NCBI GenBank assembly: GCA_002087915.1
Contig: LWDP01000011.1
Location: 1 to 41,247, forward strand
Direction: 5' to 3'
DNA: 41,247 bases
Origin: Enterospora canceri
Lineage: Eukaryota; Microsporidia; Enterocytozoonidae
Below are positions 1,444 through 39,478 of the stretch, piece by piece. The first letter of the stretch is position 1; each line of letters opens with the position of its first letter. Both the position numbers and the translations under genes were made by a program. The notes below the pieces were generated by a model. It did not search any database. It was given only the letters and a program-made list of their open reading frames with translations, and had not been told where the DNA came from.

Positions 1444-2766
1444 ATGAACACTTCTTCATCAAATACTATTCGAGATTTTTTAATACTGTTTTTCACAACC
1501 CTAAAAATGATAATTTTCACATCAGTAACCACCATGATATTCCATCTGATGCATGTTTACTGCGCTGGTGACACTGATCTAACTCAAATAAGTGATAAAC
1601 ACACTAAAAGCAAGAGTCAGAACATTGATAAAGTGATGCAGGCCAATGGAAGATATTTGGTTTTTCCAAGTATTAAAATTGGGGATTTAACAAAAGAAAA
1701 ACAGGAACTTCAAAGCATAACAAGTGCAGAAAATACACTGGTTAGTCTTAAAATAGATAGATGGACATCATCGAATGTTTTTGTGCAACGATTTCTGAAT
1801 CAAGTGATCAATAGTCATCCTCATTTTGATGTGGTTTCACAATTCTTCCGCAGTGCAACATACAAGGCTTATACCAAAGCATTCAAACAAACAGAAGAGA
1901 ATGAGGATGAATTCATTAAAATAGCACCACTGTACATCATGGATGCAATCAAAGACACTATTGTTGAATTAGGGCCAAAATGCAAATTAACACCTGAAGA
2001 AAGACAATACAGATTACAAAAGAATCTAGAGAAGTATCCTGAATACTTGGATATTTCAACAAATAAGTTTCCAAATAAGGTGGTTACAATTTATCACTAC
2101 ATGGAATTTGAGATTAGAAAGGCTAACCTGAAAAGTCCAATTATAAAATGTACGAGTACAGACAATAAAATAATGATCCATGACCTAGAAGAATATGAGA
2201 GGAATGCTAAGAAAACAACAAAANCACCACTGTACATCATGGATGCAATCAAAGACACTATTGTTGAATTAGGGCCAAAATGCAAATTAACACCTGAAGA
2301 AAGACAATACAGATTACAAAAGAATCTAGAGAAGTATCCTGAATACTTGGATATTTCAACAAATAAGTTTCCAAATAAGGTGGTTACAATTTATCACTAC
2401 ATGGAATTTGAGATTAGAAAGGCTAACCTGAAAAGTCCAATTATAAAATGTACGAGTACAGACAATAAAATAATGATCCATGACCTAGAAGAATATGAGA
2501 GGAATGCTAAGAAAACAACAAAAAAGAAAGTACCTGAGAAAGCATATGAAATATCTGATGAAGATAAGAAGATATTGATGAGATACAAGATATTAATGGG
2601 TGTATTCTTGACTAGTACAGTAATACTCATGCTACTGATTGGTGGAATTGCAGTATTGAAGAAACGAAAGAGTAAGAAAAAGAAAGGAATGAAAATACTG
2701 TTGGTTGATGCAGCTGGAAATGATGAAGATGGGACACAGACAACATATAAAGACATCAAGGTATGA
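1444..2766 (+). CDS. unknown single-span membrane protein; ORF contains an assembly duplication
   Basis: The annotated frame is 440 codons, one of them ambiguous because of the N at 2224. Bases 1925-2223 and 2225-2523 are identical, so the real protein is probably about 340 aa. The N-terminus has a hydrophobic stretch (about residues 11-40) that could be a signal peptide or anchor. The C-terminus has a Lys-rich segment, a TM helix and a KKRKSKKKK stop-transfer sequence followed by about 25 polar residues. A type I membrane protein fits best. It shares the Lys-rich neck plus TM layout with the gene at 328, which suggests a small lineage-specific family. No known domain is recognised. Confidence 0.7.
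   Translation: MNTSSSNTIRDFLILFFTTLKMIIFTSVTTMIFHLMHVYCAGDTDLTQISDKHTKSKSQNIDKVMQANGRYLVFPSIKIGDLTKEKQELQSITSAENTLVSLKIDRWTSSNVFVQRFLNQVINSHPHFDVVSQFFRSATYKAYTKAFKQTEENEDEFIKIAPLYIMDAIKDTIVELGPKCKLTPEERQYRLQKNLEKYPEYLDISTNKFPNKVVTIYHYMEFEIRKANLKSPIIKCTSTDNKIMIHDLEEYERNAKKTTKXPLYIMDAIKDTIVELGPKCKLTPEERQYRLQKNLEKYPEYLDISTNKFPNKVVTIYHYMEFEIRKANLKSPIIKCTSTDNKIMIHDLEEYERNAKKTTKKKVPEKAYEISDEDKKILMRYKILMGVFLTSTVILMLLIGGIAVLKKRKSKKKKGMKILLVDAAGNDEDGTQTTYKDIKV
1925..2523. other. exact 299-bp direct duplication flanking a single N (probable unmerged contig overlap)
   Basis: 1925-2223 is identical base for base to 2225-2523, with one N at 2224 between them. The total of 300 bases keeps the reading frame by chance or design. 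An exact copy ending precisely at an N is typical of a scaffold join in which overlapping contig ends were not collapsed. Confidence 0.9.
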
Positions 2767-16306: not shown

Positions 16307-16942
16307 TCAACTATCTTCGAATTTGGTGTATTCGGGTGGATTATCCTTTGGCTCATGCGGCGTGATGTTGTGTGTTTTGATCAGGTTCGACAGAATCAGG
16401 CGCCTCTGACTCGAGATGTCTCGTGGTGTGATGATTTTGGCCGGATTCTCGACCGTCTCGGCCTCAGAATGGGCTGCCTTCACAAAAGGCGTCTTCTTGG
16501 GCGCAGATGCCCGAACGGGCCTGCTTCTCTTTGCCACCGTTCTGACGTATTCCTCAGACGAGTTCGACTCCCGCCTCCTCTCTTTTTTCTGCCCCCTGGC
16601 CACTTTGACTGGCTTCTCCTCCATCTCCCTCACCTTCCTCATCAGCACGTTTCTGTTTGAACTCATCAGTCGCATCTCCTGCACAACCTGTGCCAGAAAG
16701 AAGTCGGTGGCCACCTTGCACATGTCGTGGATGTATCCAATCGAGTATCCACGTAGATCCAGTTTCACGAACTTCTTGGGTCTGATTTCCGAGACATCGA
16801 TCTTTGACTTGCATCGGATGCATCGCTCCTTGCGCTCCAGAAGCAGGACGCAGTCGCCGCAGAAGAGGTGCTTGCACTCTGTGATGCAGTACTTGTACTT
16901 GATGTCTGCCCTGCATTGCATATTGTTGCACTTTAGAAACAT
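16307..16942 (-). CDS. RING-finger protein resembling meiotic HEI10/Zip3 E3 ligases
   Basis: 211 aa. An N-terminal RING (residues 5-44) has the spacing C-x4-C-x8-C-x4-H-x2-C-x2-C-x10-C-x2-C and begins almost at residue 1. A helical segment (about 62-110: GYSIGYIHDM, then FFLAQVVQEMRL) follows, then a basic, Ser-rich disordered tail. This order, including a hydrophobic helix that aligns by eye with CCNB1IP1/HEI10, points to the ubiquitin/SUMO ligases that stabilise crossover intermediates in meiosis. CCC lies 13 bases upstream of the ATG. It is divergent from BRCA2 across only 82 bp, so co-expression is plausible. A generic RING ligase cannot be excluded. Confidence 0.6.
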   Translation of the reverse strand: MFLKCNNMQCRADIKYKYCITECKHLFCGDCVLLLERKERCIRCKSKIDVSEIRPKKFVKLDLRGYSIGYIHDMCKVATDFFLAQVVQEMRLMSSNRNVLMRKVREMEEKPVKVARGQKKERRRESNSSEEYVRTVAKRSRPVRASAPKKTPFVKAAHSEAETVENPAKIITPRDISSQRRLILSNLIKTHNITPHEPKDNPPEYTKFEDS

Positions 16943-17024: not shown

Positions 17025-18434
17025 ATGACCAAAAAGATCCCTCCTATGCAAAAGGCAAAAATAGAAGTGGCAACTGCTCAGAGCGACTCATTGCAGGATG
17101 AGAGGGTGGAATGGGACTCAGAGGGAAACATGAGCACGTTTGTGGAACAGGAGGAGTCAGACAACACCAAAGAGGAGTCTCTGAGTAGCATAGCAGAAGC
17201 AGATTTCTCAGAAATATTCTTCGATAACCTGGAGCCAGCCAAGGCAGAGCAGTTTGCAACTGGATTTGTGACAGGAAACAACAAGAGCATCCACGTGGAC
17301 CAGGAGAAGATAAAAGAGGCAGAAGAGAAGCTTGAATTAAACAAAGAAAACATTTCAAACAACAATTCAAGGAAGGAAGACGAAACACCGAATGAAGCGA
17401 GCACATTCACTGGCTTCTGTACAGGAAACAATAAGCGAATCAAAGTAGGAAGCAGTCGAATTCAGGTGGCAGAGGAGCAGCCAAAGGGAGCACCAATCAG
17501 GAAGTACAACAGTCCACAACGAGGGCATTTCACCCAGGTTGTCAGAGACGAGATCAAAATGATGGAATTGTACGAGACGTGTAGGCAGATATTCAGCAAG
17601 AAGCCACTTGGGTGGATACGGGAGCAGTTCAAGTGGATTTGGCTCCATTTTGTGCTGAATCCAATCGACTACGCGATGCTCAGGGACGAAATGATTCGAA
17701 TGATGAATTTCAGGGTGAAAAATGAGCAGTCGTTTTTCAGGGGTGTTTTGGAGACATCGATTCCACCCTTCAAGTATTGCGTATTGGGAATATTGGGTAT
17801 CAAAAAGGAGACAGTTGAGTTGTTTGATGGATACTACAGCCTGGTTGCTGAGATAGACAGTCAGACACACGCGTACCTGAAGCACGCTGACTTTGGATCC
17901 AAAATCCACGTATTTGGAATGGAGCTGCTTGTGAATGGGCCATGCGACATCCTGGAGACCAATAGAGCCACTCCCATTCTCAGACTGTCCTACAACAGCG
18001 TGAGACTGTGCCACACGCACCATGCAATTGGATTCAAGAACAAAATAGCATTTATGCGCAAATTGAATGAAATACGGCAGAATGGAGGCGTAGTCCCTGC
18101 CATAGAAGTCACCATCAGCCGCGTCGTTGATGAGCTGTTTCTTGTCGTAGTCGGAAACTACCGCGTGAAGACAGGCGACCTTGAGGGTGAATTTGATAAA
18201 ATCAGGGCGATGGCTGAGAAGGCGAAGAAGGAGATCAGGGCCGAGGACGTCGTGGTGCGCCGATTTGCGACTGTGGTGGTCGAAGACGACTCGACCTCTG
18301 CCCTGCTGACGTGGTGGAATCCGCCTGAAATCAGGGCAAATGAGACGTATCGGATCGTCCACACTGCTCCTCGTCAAAGCAGTAGCGGATTGCACCTGAA
18401 TACGACCAGAAAGTCCTTCTATCAGCGAATCTGA
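17025..18434 (+). CDS. BRCA2: minimal BRCA2 homologue (two BRC repeats, helical domain, OB1, OB2)
   Basis: 469 aa. Two BRC-like repeats lie at about 79-103 (GFVTGNNKSIHV) and 129-153 (GFCTGNNKRIKV). The DSS1-binding helical domain follows at about 165-262 (with WIREQFKWIWLHF). OB1 is at about 262-345 (ELFDGYYSLVAEID, then LKHADFGSKIHVFGMEL). OB2 is at about 355-469, ending in TYRIVHTA and TRKSFYQRI, the family's OB2 ending. The tower inserted in OB2 is reduced to about 30 residues, and OB3 is absent. BRCA2 loads RAD51 on RPA-coated ssDNA. GGGG three bases before the ATG supports the start. The adjacent divergent HEI10-like gene suggests a recombination role. Confidence 0.93.
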   Translation: MTKKIPPMQKAKIEVATAQSDSLQDERVEWDSEGNMSTFVEQEESDNTKEESLSSIAEADFSEIFFDNLEPAKAEQFATGFVTGNNKSIHVDQEKIKEAEEKLELNKENISNNNSRKEDETPNEASTFTGFCTGNNKRIKVGSSRIQVAEEQPKGAPIRKYNSPQRGHFTQVVRDEIKMMELYETCRQIFSKKPLGWIREQFKWIWLHFVLNPIDYAMLRDEMIRMMNFRVKNEQSFFRGVLETSIPPFKYCVLGILGIKKETVELFDGYYSLVAEIDSQTHAYLKHADFGSKIHVFGMELLVNGPCDILETNRATPILRLSYNSVRLCHTHHAIGFKNKIAFMRKLNEIRQNGGVVPAIEVTISRVVDELFLVVVGNYRVKTGDLEGEFDKIRAMAEKAKKEIRAEDVVVRRFATVVVEDDSTSALLTWWNPPEIRANETYRIVHTAPRQSSSGLHLNTTRKSFYQRI

Positions 18435-18578: not shown

Positions 18579-19604
18579 ATGATTAGTTTCGGAGTGATGT
18601 CACAGTACGCGCTGGTTGCATCAGCTGCGTTCTCAGCCAACCCAAATGCGCCCACTGGCAACGGGCAAGAGAACGCCCTGCTTATGCACAACCTGAATTT
18701 CAGTGGTAGCTCCCTCAAGTTCGACTCGCACACGACCGACTCCTACAAGGACGGCGAGCTGCTCTTTGAGCAGATGCGCGAGATCGTGGACGACCTGTGC
18801 GTGAACACGTCACCAAATGCGATCTTGTGCGGCGAGCTGGAGTCCCTCCGCTGCTACGGATTCAGAATCTTCTCGCTCTCCGAAGGCAGCTACGCCTCGA
18901 AGATGTGTCGCCAGAAGGACTTGCTCTACTTCTATTTCAACCAAATGGAGTCACTTGTTCCACCATTCGTATACAACGACTACGTTAAGGCACTGGGAGA
19001 TGGCAACCTGGATGACTGCTACAAGATCCTGAACTCAGTCTTTGGCAAGATCAGCACGGAGGAGGCAGCGTATCTCGCGGCCTATAAGATTCGAGACAGA
19101 TTGAACGGAAAGCACCAACGAGGAGTCCTCTTCGTGGACGTCCTCTCTGGAAAGACGTTCTTCATGGAGCAGCGTAGACGCGATTCAGGGGAGAAGGGCG
19201 GCAAGAACCGCATTCTGCTGGTTCCAAATGGATTCCTGAATCTCTACAAGTTCTTCGGATACTCGCTCTACCTGGTTGATCTGATGGTCAGTACGTCTTC
19301 CTATGCATCGGAAATCAGGGCAGTTGAAAGTGCACTGATTGGTGGCAAGACATTCAAGGGAGCAAATGTCACAATCAACGTCGAGTCACGGGAGTTGCCA
19401 GTCTGCAAGATTCTCACCTACAAGTATTTCGTGTACACGGTGTTCTCAATGGAAGTATGTGGGCTGCCAAGCACAACGATAAAGAAGACAATTGCGGCAT
19501 TGAGGGAGAAAATGTTCGAAGTGCAGAACTCAGTCATCCTCATCAGGAAGGAAGTGGACATCTTGGGATACCTGAATGTAGTGGTACTAAGCAATAAAAA
19601 GTAA
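18579..19604 (+). CDS. conserved-looking protein of unknown function
   Basis: 341 aa from the ATG at 18579, which follows GGGACCCT. The frame is open upstream to 18441 with a hydrophobic stretch, but that part lies in the BRCA2 3' flank and lacks the start motif. The protein looks soluble, with alternating strands and helices (for example RGVLFVDVLSGKTFF, then LGYLNVVVLSNKK at the C-terminus). Codon use is G/C-ending like its neighbours. The folded, well-composed sequence suggests a conserved but diverged family. I cannot name it. Confidence 0.8.
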   Translation: MISFGVMSQYALVASAAFSANPNAPTGNGQENALLMHNLNFSGSSLKFDSHTTDSYKDGELLFEQMREIVDDLCVNTSPNAILCGELESLRCYGFRIFSLSEGSYASKMCRQKDLLYFYFNQMESLVPPFVYNDYVKALGDGNLDDCYKILNSVFGKISTEEAAYLAAYKIRDRLNGKHQRGVLFVDVLSGKTFFMEQRRRDSGEKGGKNRILLVPNGFLNLYKFFGYSLYLVDLMVSTSSYASEIRAVESALIGGKTFKGANVTINVESRELPVCKILTYKYFVYTVFSMEVCGLPSTTIKKTIAALREKMFEVQNSVILIRKEVDILGYLNVVVLSNKK

Positions 19605-24518: not shown

Positions 24519-27350
24519 ATGAGGTACAAAAATCTGATACGAAGGATTCAGCTGAACAACTTCATGTGCCACGACAACTTCCAGATTGAGTTCGAGAACA
24601 TGATTACGTGCATAACAGGCAGGAATGGGTCAGGAAAGAGCGCAGTTATGGTCTCATTGGGTCTCGTTTTTGGGCAGAAGTCGAGTCAGATGGACAGAGG
24701 CAACACGTTTGCTGAATTGATTAAGAATGGCAAGGATAATGCCACAATCACAGTCTACCTGTCAAACATCCACAATTTGCCTGGATTTGAAGATGAAATT
24801 GTAATTCAAAAGAGACTGTATAATGCGCCTAAGAAAAGTGAAACTAGAATTCGAAAAAGTGGGAAGTTTACAGTGATCACCAAAAGTGAGTTGGATTTGG
24901 TTACGAAGGAGATGAATCTGACATTCAGCAATCCAATCAACTTCCTGACGCAGGACAACTCCAAGAAGATTCTGAATGTGACAACACCAAATGAGCTGTA
25001 TCGATTCTATTACGAAGGAACTGAATTCAAGAATATTGAGGAAGAGATAGAAGAAGGAGAGGAGCGGATTGAAAAGATGAACGAGAAGATGAAACAGACG
25101 GCCAGTAAGCTCGATGAGTTCCAGAATAAGGCAAATGCAACCAAAAAGGTGTTGAAATTTGTTTCGAAGGATTTCAGAAAGGTGTTGGAAGAATTGGATT
25201 GGGAAGAGGAGTGGATTGAGGTGAAAGAGAACAAAATGAAGATGATAGAGCAGCAAACAAAGCTGGATGAAGTAGTCAGACAACTGGAGGTGCTTGATAC
25301 TGAAGTCAGGAGCACAACCATAGATATACCAAGGGTGGAACTCATTGACACCAAGGAATTTAAAACTAAACTAGCAGAGGTAACTAATGATTACACGGCA
25401 ATCAAAGCAGATTATGAGAAGTCGACATCTGATTTCAGACAGAGAGAACAGACGTACAAAGCAGCTAAGGCTAGAAACAATAAGGAGGTGTTAGTTCAGA
25501 AGATCACTAAATTGACTGAAACATGCGAAAGTTATGAGAAAGAGAAGAAGATGTTGGAGAGTGAGCAGATGGCGATATTTGATAAGGTGGATGAAGAGAA
25601 AGAGCGAAACAAAACAGTAGAAACAAGGCGAAGAGCAATCAGCAACACGGTTCAGGAAATCAGAAACAAGCAATCAGCTTTATACAGTACCGTATTCAAG
25701 AGGAAATTTGATGGTCTAAGAAGAGCACTGCGTTCTAAAATAGAAGCAGGACACTTTAAGGATGTCATTATTGGACCAATCTGTGACTACGTGAATCTCA
25801 ATGACAAAAAGTGGTATAAACCAGCCTCAATAATTCTGAAGAAATCATTGGACAACTTCGTGGTATTCAATTCAGAAGACAAAAATAAGCTGTTTCAGGT
25901 ACTGCGAGAACAAAACGTATTCTGCTCAATTCTACTGCTACAAAGCAAACAGGTCATTGATCCAAAGAAATTCAGTGACTATAAGACACTTTTGGATGTG
26001 ATTGATGTGAAATTTGATATTATCAGAAACGTATTAATAACGATGCATGGTGCAGAAGAAACCGTTTTGATTGAAGAAAGGTCCAAGGCGTATGAAATAG
26101 CACAACTTGAAGGAAACAGAATTGGATCAGTTTATTTGCCAACAGGAGACAGAATTAAGTGTGTTAGGGGAAATATGAGTGATTACAGGGAAAGAGAAAC
26201 AGGAAAGTATTTCTTTGAAGACAGTGGCCTGAGAATGGAAACACTGCTATTGGATCTCAAGAAGTGTGTGCAAACGAATGAATGGATACAGAAAGATAAT
26301 GAGTTGAACAAGAAGCAGGCTGATTTATACTTAAGATTGAAGAATGAGCAAATGAAATTGGATGATTGTAAAAGTGAGTTGAAGAGTTACGATACGATGA
26401 AAGACGATGATTTGGTGCAGTTGGAGAGGAAACTGGCTGTAATGAACAAGCAGAGTGCAAGTATGAAGAATAAAAAAGAGAGTTTGGAACAAATAAAGCT
26501 AGATGCAGAGAAGCAGCTACAGGAAGCAGAAAGAGCCAATATTGAGGGACTTAGGAAGCAAAGAGAGGTGCAGAATGAGCAAATGAAAAAGCACAGACAA
26601 TATTATGCTGATAAAGAACGCATAAATACTCAAATAAAAATGTATAAACAGGCATTAGAAATGACCAAAAGAGCAATTGCTAACAAGACAGAGAGCCTGC
26701 TTACGAAAGGGAGTGAAGCTGTGGACAATCCAAGAACCAAAGAACAGGTTGATGAGCAACGAGCAAAGACACACGGTCTGATTAAGAGAGCAGAAGACCT
26801 GGGGACTAAGGCAGAGATTGAAAATGAGCTACTGGAATTGGAAGGGGAAAAGAACAATTTGTTGAACATTTATTCGAATTTCAAGGGATCCGTTGAGATG
26901 ACGAAGGATGCGGTGAAGCACAGGAAGCTCAAGAGAGACGAAATAAAGAACAAGAAAACAGTGGAAACAATTCAGGCATTTCGTGAATTCACGGCCACGA
27001 GTGGATATGATGGTGAATTGGTATTTGATCACGTGTCTAAGAAGCTGGATTTGAAGATGCGAGTCCACAACAACACAGTCAAAGGAAACAAGAACACGCT
27101 TTCTGGTGGCGAGAGATCCTTTGCAGGTGTCTGCTTCCTGTTGAGTCTCTGGAGTTCATTCAATTGCCCTGTGAAGATACTGGATGAGTTTGATGTGTTT
27201 ATGGATGCTGAAAACAGGAAGAATGCAATCAAACGCATCTGTGAATTTGTAAGAACCAGTCACTGTCAGATAATTCTGATTACACCACTTGAAGTTGGTG
27301 ATATTCAGAAGCAAGGCGGTGACGTACAGCGCATTGAGAAGCGGCCCTGA
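24519..27350 (+). CDS. SMC6: SMC6, ATPase of the SMC5/6 complex
   Basis: 943 aa. The Walker A motif GRNGSGKS is at 34-41, preceded by LNNFMCHDNFQIEF, which is typical of SMC6. Two long coiled-coil arms (about 170-400 and 600-840) flank a hinge (about 405-590, including GPICDYVNL). The C-terminal head carries the signature LSGGERSF at 861-868 and Walker B VKILDEFDVFMD (885-896); the DEFDVxMD form separates SMC6 from SMC1-5. SMC5/6 acts in recombination repair, resolution of joint molecules and SUMO signalling. It is shorter than yeast or human SMC6 (about 1100 aa), mostly in the arms. Confidence 0.97.
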   Translation: MRYKNLIRRIQLNNFMCHDNFQIEFENMITCITGRNGSGKSAVMVSLGLVFGQKSSQMDRGNTFAELIKNGKDNATITVYLSNIHNLPGFEDEIVIQKRLYNAPKKSETRIRKSGKFTVITKSELDLVTKEMNLTFSNPINFLTQDNSKKILNVTTPNELYRFYYEGTEFKNIEEEIEEGEERIEKMNEKMKQTASKLDEFQNKANATKKVLKFVSKDFRKVLEELDWEEEWIEVKENKMKMIEQQTKLDEVVRQLEVLDTEVRSTTIDIPRVELIDTKEFKTKLAEVTNDYTAIKADYEKSTSDFRQREQTYKAAKARNNKEVLVQKITKLTETCESYEKEKKMLESEQMAIFDKVDEEKERNKTVETRRRAISNTVQEIRNKQSALYSTVFKRKFDGLRRALRSKIEAGHFKDVIIGPICDYVNLNDKKWYKPASIILKKSLDNFVVFNSEDKNKLFQVLREQNVFCSILLLQSKQVIDPKKFSDYKTLLDVIDVKFDIIRNVLITMHGAEETVLIEERSKAYEIAQLEGNRIGSVYLPTGDRIKCVRGNMSDYRERETGKYFFEDSGLRMETLLLDLKKCVQTNEWIQKDNELNKKQADLYLRLKNEQMKLDDCKSELKSYDTMKDDDLVQLERKLAVMNKQSASMKNKKESLEQIKLDAEKQLQEAERANIEGLRKQREVQNEQMKKHRQYYADKERINTQIKMYKQALEMTKRAIANKTESLLTKGSEAVDNPRTKEQVDEQRAKTHGLIKRAEDLGTKAEIENELLELEGEKNNLLNIYSNFKGSVEMTKDAVKHRKLKRDEIKNKKTVETIQAFREFTATSGYDGELVFDHVSKKLDLKMRVHNNTVKGNKNTLSGGERSFAGVCFLLSLWSSFNCPVKILDEFDVFMDAENRKNAIKRICEFVRTSHCQIILITPLEVGDIQKQGGDVQRIEKRP

Positions 27351-38989: not shown

Positions 38990-39478
38990 ATGAGTCGGAG
39001 TCAACGAGTAGCAGGCATGCTGAACGAGGCAGTGGCATTGGAGCATAAGGCGTGGTACTACTACACTCTTGTTGCTGGAATGATGGATAGAAGTGCGTAT
39101 CCAAATCTGTCAGTCTGGTTCAGGAAGGAGGCCCTTGATGAACTGGAACACGCCCAGATTGTGATATCGTTCATAAACAGGCTGAATACGCCACTCAGGT
39201 TCCCTGATATTGGGAGACCTGTTTTGGATGAATCAGATCAGTTGGTGATTGACGCATTCAGAAAGGCAGTTGAGTTTGAGCAGATTGTGCTAGGCCACTA
39301 CTCGAAGATGGCTGCTGTTGCTGATGAGGAGGGTGATTTGGTTGTTGCTGAATTCTGTGATCAGTTTCTACGGTTGCAGATCAAGGAAGTGAAATCATTC
39401 AGGGATCACCTGAGAAATGCAGAGAGGTGCAAGAGGGAGGCAGACACGTTCGTATTTGATCAGTCATTTGGTAAGTGA
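38990..39478 (+). CDS. ferritin with complete ferroxidase centre
   Basis: 162 aa, four-helix ferritin fold. Aligning by eye with H-chain ferritin gives every ferroxidase ligand: E18 and Y25 (ALEHKAWYYY), E51 and H54 (DELEHA), E97 (VEFEQIV) and Q130 (FLRLQIKEVK). It should therefore oxidise Fe(II) and store iron as a 24-mer. There is no signal or transit peptide, so it is cytosolic. It is slightly shorter than human H ferritin (183 aa), with a short fifth helix. Upstream 98 bp separate it from the divergent PMM gene. No CCC/GGG motif lies before the ATG. Confidence 0.94.
   Translation: MSRSQRVAGMLNEAVALEHKAWYYYTLVAGMMDRSAYPNLSVWFRKEALDELEHAQIVISFINRLNTPLRFPDIGRPVLDESDQLVIDAFRKAVEFEQIVLGHYSKMAAVADEEGDLVVAEFCDQFLRLQIKEVKSFRDHLRNAERCKREADTFVFDQSFGK

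Follow-up and report, generated by a model that had tools for sequence, protein, structure and literature searches.

Which parts of BRCA2 can a cell spare and still load RAD51? The question is raised by an open reading frame (ORF) in the window analysed here, the whole 41,247-nucleotide stretch of Enterospora canceri contig LWDP01000011.1. A first-pass annotation had taken its product of 469 amino acids (aa) for a BRCA2. According to our analysis, this product represents a variant fungal BRCA2 that a set of microsporidia share. It is very probably the only BRCA2 ortholog detected in this genome, which would capture RAD51 through BRC-like repeats and deliver it to single-stranded DNA (ssDNA) through a folded C-terminal unit. 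The gene and its parts are the following (pLDDT, predicted local distance difference test):

17025..18434, + strand: BRCA2 ortholog, 469 aa, ATG to TGA (Pfam, phmmer, ortholog comparison)
17259..17345, + strand: BRC-like repeat 1, aa 79-107, TGFVTGNNKSIHVDQEKIKEAEEKLELNK (Pfam BRCA2 repeat in two stretches, motif scan)
17409..17480, + strand: BRC-like repeat 2, aa 129-152, TGFCTGNNKRIKVGSSRIQVAEEQ (Pfam best stretch 127-144, motif scan)
17514..17774, + strand: apparently shortened helical domain, aa 164-250, helices 164-189, 195-211, 216-232 and 237-242 (AlphaFold2; aa 164-166 with pLDDT below 50)
17775..18056, + strand: OB1, aa 251-344 (PF09103 at residues 260-338)
18057..18431, + strand: OB2, aa 345-469, the C-terminal end of the protein (single-OB model matching about 343-469; phmmer match of 1mje to aa 467)
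18156..18248, + strand: tower stub within OB2, about aa 378-408 (AlphaFold2 model; inter-anchor distance)

The identity of the protein was established by both sequence and structure comparison. In the Pfam search the protein matched both a BRCA2-type OB1 (BRCA-2_OB1, E 1.6e-11) and the BRCA2 repeat (PF00634, E 1.6e-5, 24.7 bits against a cut-off of 20.3). In a phmmer search against PDB, the rodent BRCA2 chains 1miu, 1mje and 1iyj were detected at E 1.7e-8 to 9.3e-8; these three are the only matches below E 1e-6, and the sole other match at E<=1 has a value of 0.47. The 1mje match starts in OB1 and reaches the end of OB2. AlphaFold2 modeled the chain with block means of pLDDT between 74 and 96 for residues 171-469 and below 50 for residues 1-166. 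When the model was compared with known structures using Foldseek and VIA-align, three BRCA2-DSS1 structures came out on top, and rows 4 to 50 of the VIA-align results were OB-fold proteins aligned chiefly to OB2. The model thus has the helical-OB1-OB2 fold of 1iyj, 1mje and 1miu, in agreement with both the identity and the domain order proposed in the first-pass annotation. A single match to a BRCA2-type protein is present in the genome (G000, a 2.24 Mb assembly of 75 contigs). As judged from the sequence and the predicted structure taken together, this is a BRCA2 with the domains in the expected order, a stub in place of the tower and no OB3. Its composition (OB1 and OB2, no OB3, few BRC repeats) is that of the Brh2-type fungal BRCA2.

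Is this architecture confined to one gene? A protein search revealed eight orthologs besides the query, 314-895 aa long: Ecytonucleospora hepatopenaei EHP00_1738, Nucleospora cyclopteri NUSPORA_01666, Pancytospora philotis PAPHI01_1796, Cucumispora dikerogammari CDIK_0211 and the proteins P0005, P0006, P0008 and P0009. One source lists EHP00_1738 under an automatic name, 'BRCA2 OB1 domain-contain...'. The named relatives of the protein point to a microsporidian close to Enterocytozoonidae as its source. All share the C-terminal architecture and the stub tower with the query, to which they are 21-42% identical. The differences lie in length, due mostly to N-terminal variation, and in the number of BRC-like core motifs, which ranges from zero (P0003) to two. 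Pfam detects OB1 in eight of the nine orthologs (the query is included in this and all following counts). A tenth protein, V866_002676 of the yeast Kwoniella (P0011), served as an outside comparison. The last profile search scored only the 7990 candidates sharing most words and listed eight proteins, missing P0008 and P0009 of its own query set; the spread in other microsporidia is therefore a lower bound. Passages from three papers on BRCA2 together with microsporidia or Encephalitozoon contain no description of a microsporidian BRCA2, and the word BRCA2 does not occur in the main text of PMC12134460, in which Nucleospora was sequenced.

The most conspicuous reduction concerns the tower, which the first-pass annotation had put at about 30 residues. 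The model and the length comparison agree with this estimate. In the model, a single 14-residue helix (386-399) takes the place of the tower. Because MAFFT misplaces the Kwoniella tower, its length was expressed as the distance between fixed anchors, from the 'GG' of the OB1-OB2 junction to the OB2 Trp (Phe in Cucumispora). Seven of the nine orthologs have 77 residues between these anchors; Pancytospora has 75 and Cucumispora 81, compared with 172 in Kwoniella P0011 and about 176 (counted) in rodent 1miu and 1iyj. The tower region is thus some 95 residues shorter here than in Kwoniella. A full tower is lacking; towers are a variable feature, and C. elegans BRC-2 has none. A second apparent shortening, in the helical domain, corrects the first-pass annotation. 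The Pfam helical model (PF09169) matches none of the nine orthologs at E<=0.1, nor do the tower and OB3 models, while AlphaFold2 models four helices in the query. In the alignment, the Ser of rodent RRSALKKILERDD corresponds to S236 of this domain.

What, then, would the protein do? The disordered N-terminal third (aa 1-163) would capture RAD51 with its two BRC-like repeats. The presence of two repeats, as annotated, is supported by the above-threshold PF00634 match and by a motif scan. Both start with TGFxTGNNKxIxV and agree with the consensus Fx[ST][AG]xGx(12)[ASV], quoted in PMC10684384, save for N at the last G. This position of the motif was relaxed post hoc, after the sequence had been seen. 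With the relaxed motif, only 4 of 200,000 composition shuffles of the N-terminal 163 residues gave two matches, and 0.44% of the same shuffles gave one or more. The core motif F.T[AG].[NGK]K.[IVL] is found in eight of the nine orthologs; the ninth, P0003 (314 aa), begins just ahead of the helical domain and has no such motif. The Pfam BRC repeat is matched in four of the nine. The folded C-terminal unit (helical domain, OB1 and OB2), with its tower cut to one short helix and with OB3 absent as in other fungal BRCA2s, would bind ssDNA and deliver RAD51 to it.

The partner expected by this reading is present. The genome search for the RAD51/DMC1 family returned one match (a lower bound), which in NCBIfam exceeds the RAD51 cut-off (548.5 against 478 bits), falls short of that for DMC1 (430.6 against 447.7 bits) and is assigned to RAD51:

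L002, 1492-2505, - strand: RAD51 (NCBIfam)

No DMC1 was found in this family search. The genome further codes for RAD52 (E 2.2e-52), a protein with the SPO11-type TP6A_N domain (E 4.2e-12) and MND1 (E 3.0e-23). Compared with human RAD51, the protein has the substitutions P168T, L186F, V189I and A190S (counted from the alignment) at positions that we take to line the FxxA pocket; most of the BRC-like repeats read FxTG. The FxTG repeats might go together with these pocket changes. However, the FTTA motif of RAD51 itself is unchanged, and the P0008 repeat reads FQTA, which leaves such covariation tentative.

Several points weigh against a BRCA2 that captures and delivers RAD51. The BRC motif reads FxTG and not FxxA, with Gly in place of the Ala, and N stands at the last G of the consensus. 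None of the ten scanned proteins, that of Kwoniella included, has the strict published form. The three-helix bundle of the tower, needed in human mini-BRCA2 (PMC3240595), is missing here; in the human construct the PALB2-binding site partly overrides the need for the tower, according to the same paper. RAD52, also present, could be the mediator. Binding to RAD51 and to DNA is in both cases a prediction. Nevertheless, we consider a working RAD51 loader to be most likely, with RAD51 capture, ssDNA binding and loading predicted from sequence and model. The 'natural minimal RAD51 loader' of the first-pass annotation is a reasonable inference, backed by the one RAD51 in the genome.

Does the loader depend on DSS1? 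The first-pass annotation spoke of a DSS1-binding core. The DSS1 contacts of human BRCA2 include R2659 and G2748; D2723 adjoins DSS1 (PMC8191791). The corresponding residues in OB1 are D268 (D2723), kept in all nine orthologs, and G291 (G2748), kept in eight of nine (8/8 of alignment A2, the exception being Cucumispora). R230 aligns, within a gapped stretch, with R2659; six orthologs have R at this position and three have K. For K2630, another DSS1-binding residue, the mapping gave no consistent counterpart (an ungapped comparison by eye with Kwoniella puts it at His208 of the query, pairwise alignments vary between the proteins, and MAFFT gives yet another position). The conserved positions would speak against a full loss of DSS1 binding, although D2723 also holds the helical-OB1 interface. 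The DSS1-binding core is not supported as annotated: two or three DSS1-linked positions are conserved, but such a core presupposes a partner that could not be found. The genome gave no match at E<=10 either to the DSS1/SEM1 family (PF05160) or to human DSS1 as a protein query, both searches being without a positive control. The motif W[DE]xxW[DE] occurs at one site, which has an in-frame stop (17 sites for the reversed control pattern). The motif [DE][NDEK]W[DE][DE] occurs at 13 sites (reversed control 5), nine of them in open frames of at least 30 codons and four without such a frame, and [DE][DE]F[DE][DE]F at six exact sites; none of these lies in a DSS1-like short acidic frame. If up to one mismatch is allowed in the latter motif, there are 42 sites (control 19), of which 15 had loci; the inspection covered the exact motifs. 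A survey reports that Rpn3, Rpn12, Rpn13 and Rpn15/Sem1 are missing from all microsporidia examined (PMC8615682). There are four PCI-domain proteins in the present genome, and one of them is a divergent Rpn3:

L008, 1306-2502 (contig C50 of G000), - strand: divergent Rpn3 (PDB PSMD3/RPN3, E 3e-8)

At E<=1 it has 11 PDB hits, ten of which bear the name PSMD3/RPN3 and one 'PCI domain-containing protein'. Since a subunit reported missing is present here, the absence of SEM1 has to be taken with care. Rpn7 is also present. In yeast, SEM1 bridges Rpn3 and Rpn7.

These data leave two ways to picture the loader. We see an even chance that it is an ordinary DSS1-dependent fungal BRCA2, whose DSS1 gene escaped the searches because its product is too diverged or too short. 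The largely kept DSS1-linked positions and the presence of both proteasome subunits that SEM1 bridges favor this explanation, against which stand the three empty searches (family, human protein and W[DE]xxW[DE]) and the survey. Alternatively, and with a probability that we place somewhat under one half, the folded DNA-binding unit works independently of DSS1; the lineage would have lost DSS1/SEM1, and the shortening of the helical domain and the tower would go with the loss. The same searches and survey, the lack of a DSS1-like frame at the looser motif sites and the shortened helical domain are consistent with such a loss. However, the family and protein searches lacked a positive control, the overlooked Rpn3 shows that divergent subunits can escape detection, and D268, G291 and R230 are largely kept. 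Only tentatively, therefore, do we propose that microsporidia hold a natural DSS1-free BRCA2, a ready mini-loader having a folded DNA-binding unit but neither tower tip nor DSS1 partner. The genome search for partners suggested by the first-pass annotation has thus located RAD51, but neither DMC1 nor SEM1/DSS1.

How unusual is such a BRCA2? Fungal BRCA2s (Brh2 of Ustilago maydis, Naganishia liquefaciens, Kwoniella P0011) likewise have one to three BRC repeats, helical domain, OB1 and OB2 but no OB3 (PMC10684384, PMC8121103), and the Kwoniella protein also ends soon after OB2. In contrast, the present protein is less than half as long, has a shortened helical domain and FxTG-NN repeats, and its DSS1 was not found in the searches. 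Naganishia Brh2 retains the tower (PMC10684384), whereas no tower protrudes from OB2 here; we therefore classify the protein as a variant of the Brh2 type. C. elegans BRC-2 is also very small and has no tower (PMC3240595), but its 394 aa comprise a single BRC and a single OB fold, which is described as closer to that of RPA (PMC8121103, PMC3240595). Moss (Physcomitrium) BRCA2 has 391 aa and lacks the folded domain (PMC12412785). The moss and Drosophila proteins, reduced as well, promote recombination and may not need DSS1, but they miss the whole folded DNA-binding domain that is kept here (PMC12412785). The description 'very small' does not hold as an extreme: the worm and moss proteins and the 444-aa P0005 and P0009 are smaller, so this is not the smallest known BRCA2. 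Small size and a missing OB3 have precedent; what sets this protein apart is its stub tower, its shortened helical domain and, possibly, a lack of DSS1.

We regard it as improbable that the protein is a DNA-annealing or telomere-type OB protein instead of a RAD51 loader. The OB2 of the model does resemble RPA, telomere-end binding protein and HIN domains as well, and annealing is an additional function of C. elegans BRC-2 (PMC8121103). However, the BRC-like core motif recurs in all orthologs except the N-terminally short P0003, and RAD52 is already available in the genome.

Could OB3 have been overlooked? The protein stops after OB2, and a six-frame genome search with Pfam OB3 (PF09104), run without a positive control, gave no match. 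The absence of OB3 is therefore upheld, but not as a special feature, since it is reported to be common in fungal BRCA2. All nine orthologs end 37-40 residues past the OB2 anchor (55 in Kwoniella). Because both the anchor distances and the ends agree across the orthologs, the stub and the end after OB2 are shared and not a sequencing fault; comparison of the domain limits in relatives gives no sign of the frameshift that might have hidden OB3, and we rejected this possibility. In the ORF that follows downstream (18579-19604), Pfam finds nothing at E<=0.1, and the model of its product (pLDDT 39, mostly helical) is too poor to judge the fold. A decayed gene, or an OB3 behind a frameshift, has nothing in its favor beyond the short length and is highly improbable given the common end of the orthologs and the empty genome search for OB3.

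Several other genes lie in the window. Divergently transcribed from the BRCA2 gene, 82 bp from its start, is a RING protein (16307-16942, - strand; zf-RING_5 E 1.5e-4, below cut-off), by eye presumably similar to the crossover proteins HEI10/Zip3; a recombination gene pair is possible. An SMC protein (24519-27350, + strand; PF02463 E 9e-19), SMC6-like by eye, is possibly another repair gene. A ferritin-like protein is encoded at 38990-39478 (+ strand; PF00210 E 7e-25). In the ORF 1444-2766 (+ strand), the single N of the window (2224) lies between two copies of the same stretch of about 100 residues, which looks like an assembly join. Measured in kilobase steps along the window, G+C content stays at 0.31-0.38 for 11 of the first 12 and lies at 0.39-0.53 thereafter.

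Human mini-BRCA2 constructs need the tip of the tower, and those with the folded domain depend critically on DSS1 binding (PMC3240595). Both requirements become testable in an ortholog from nature that has the folded domain but hardly any tower and possibly no DSS1, and such a protein could reveal which BRCA2 parts cells can spare. If true, a DSS1-free BRCA2 without the tower tip would dispense with features deemed necessary in human work when the folded unit is present. The retention of BRCA2, RAD51, RAD52, a SPO11-type gene and MND1 in an assembly of 2.2 Mb also bears on whether these parasites recombine.
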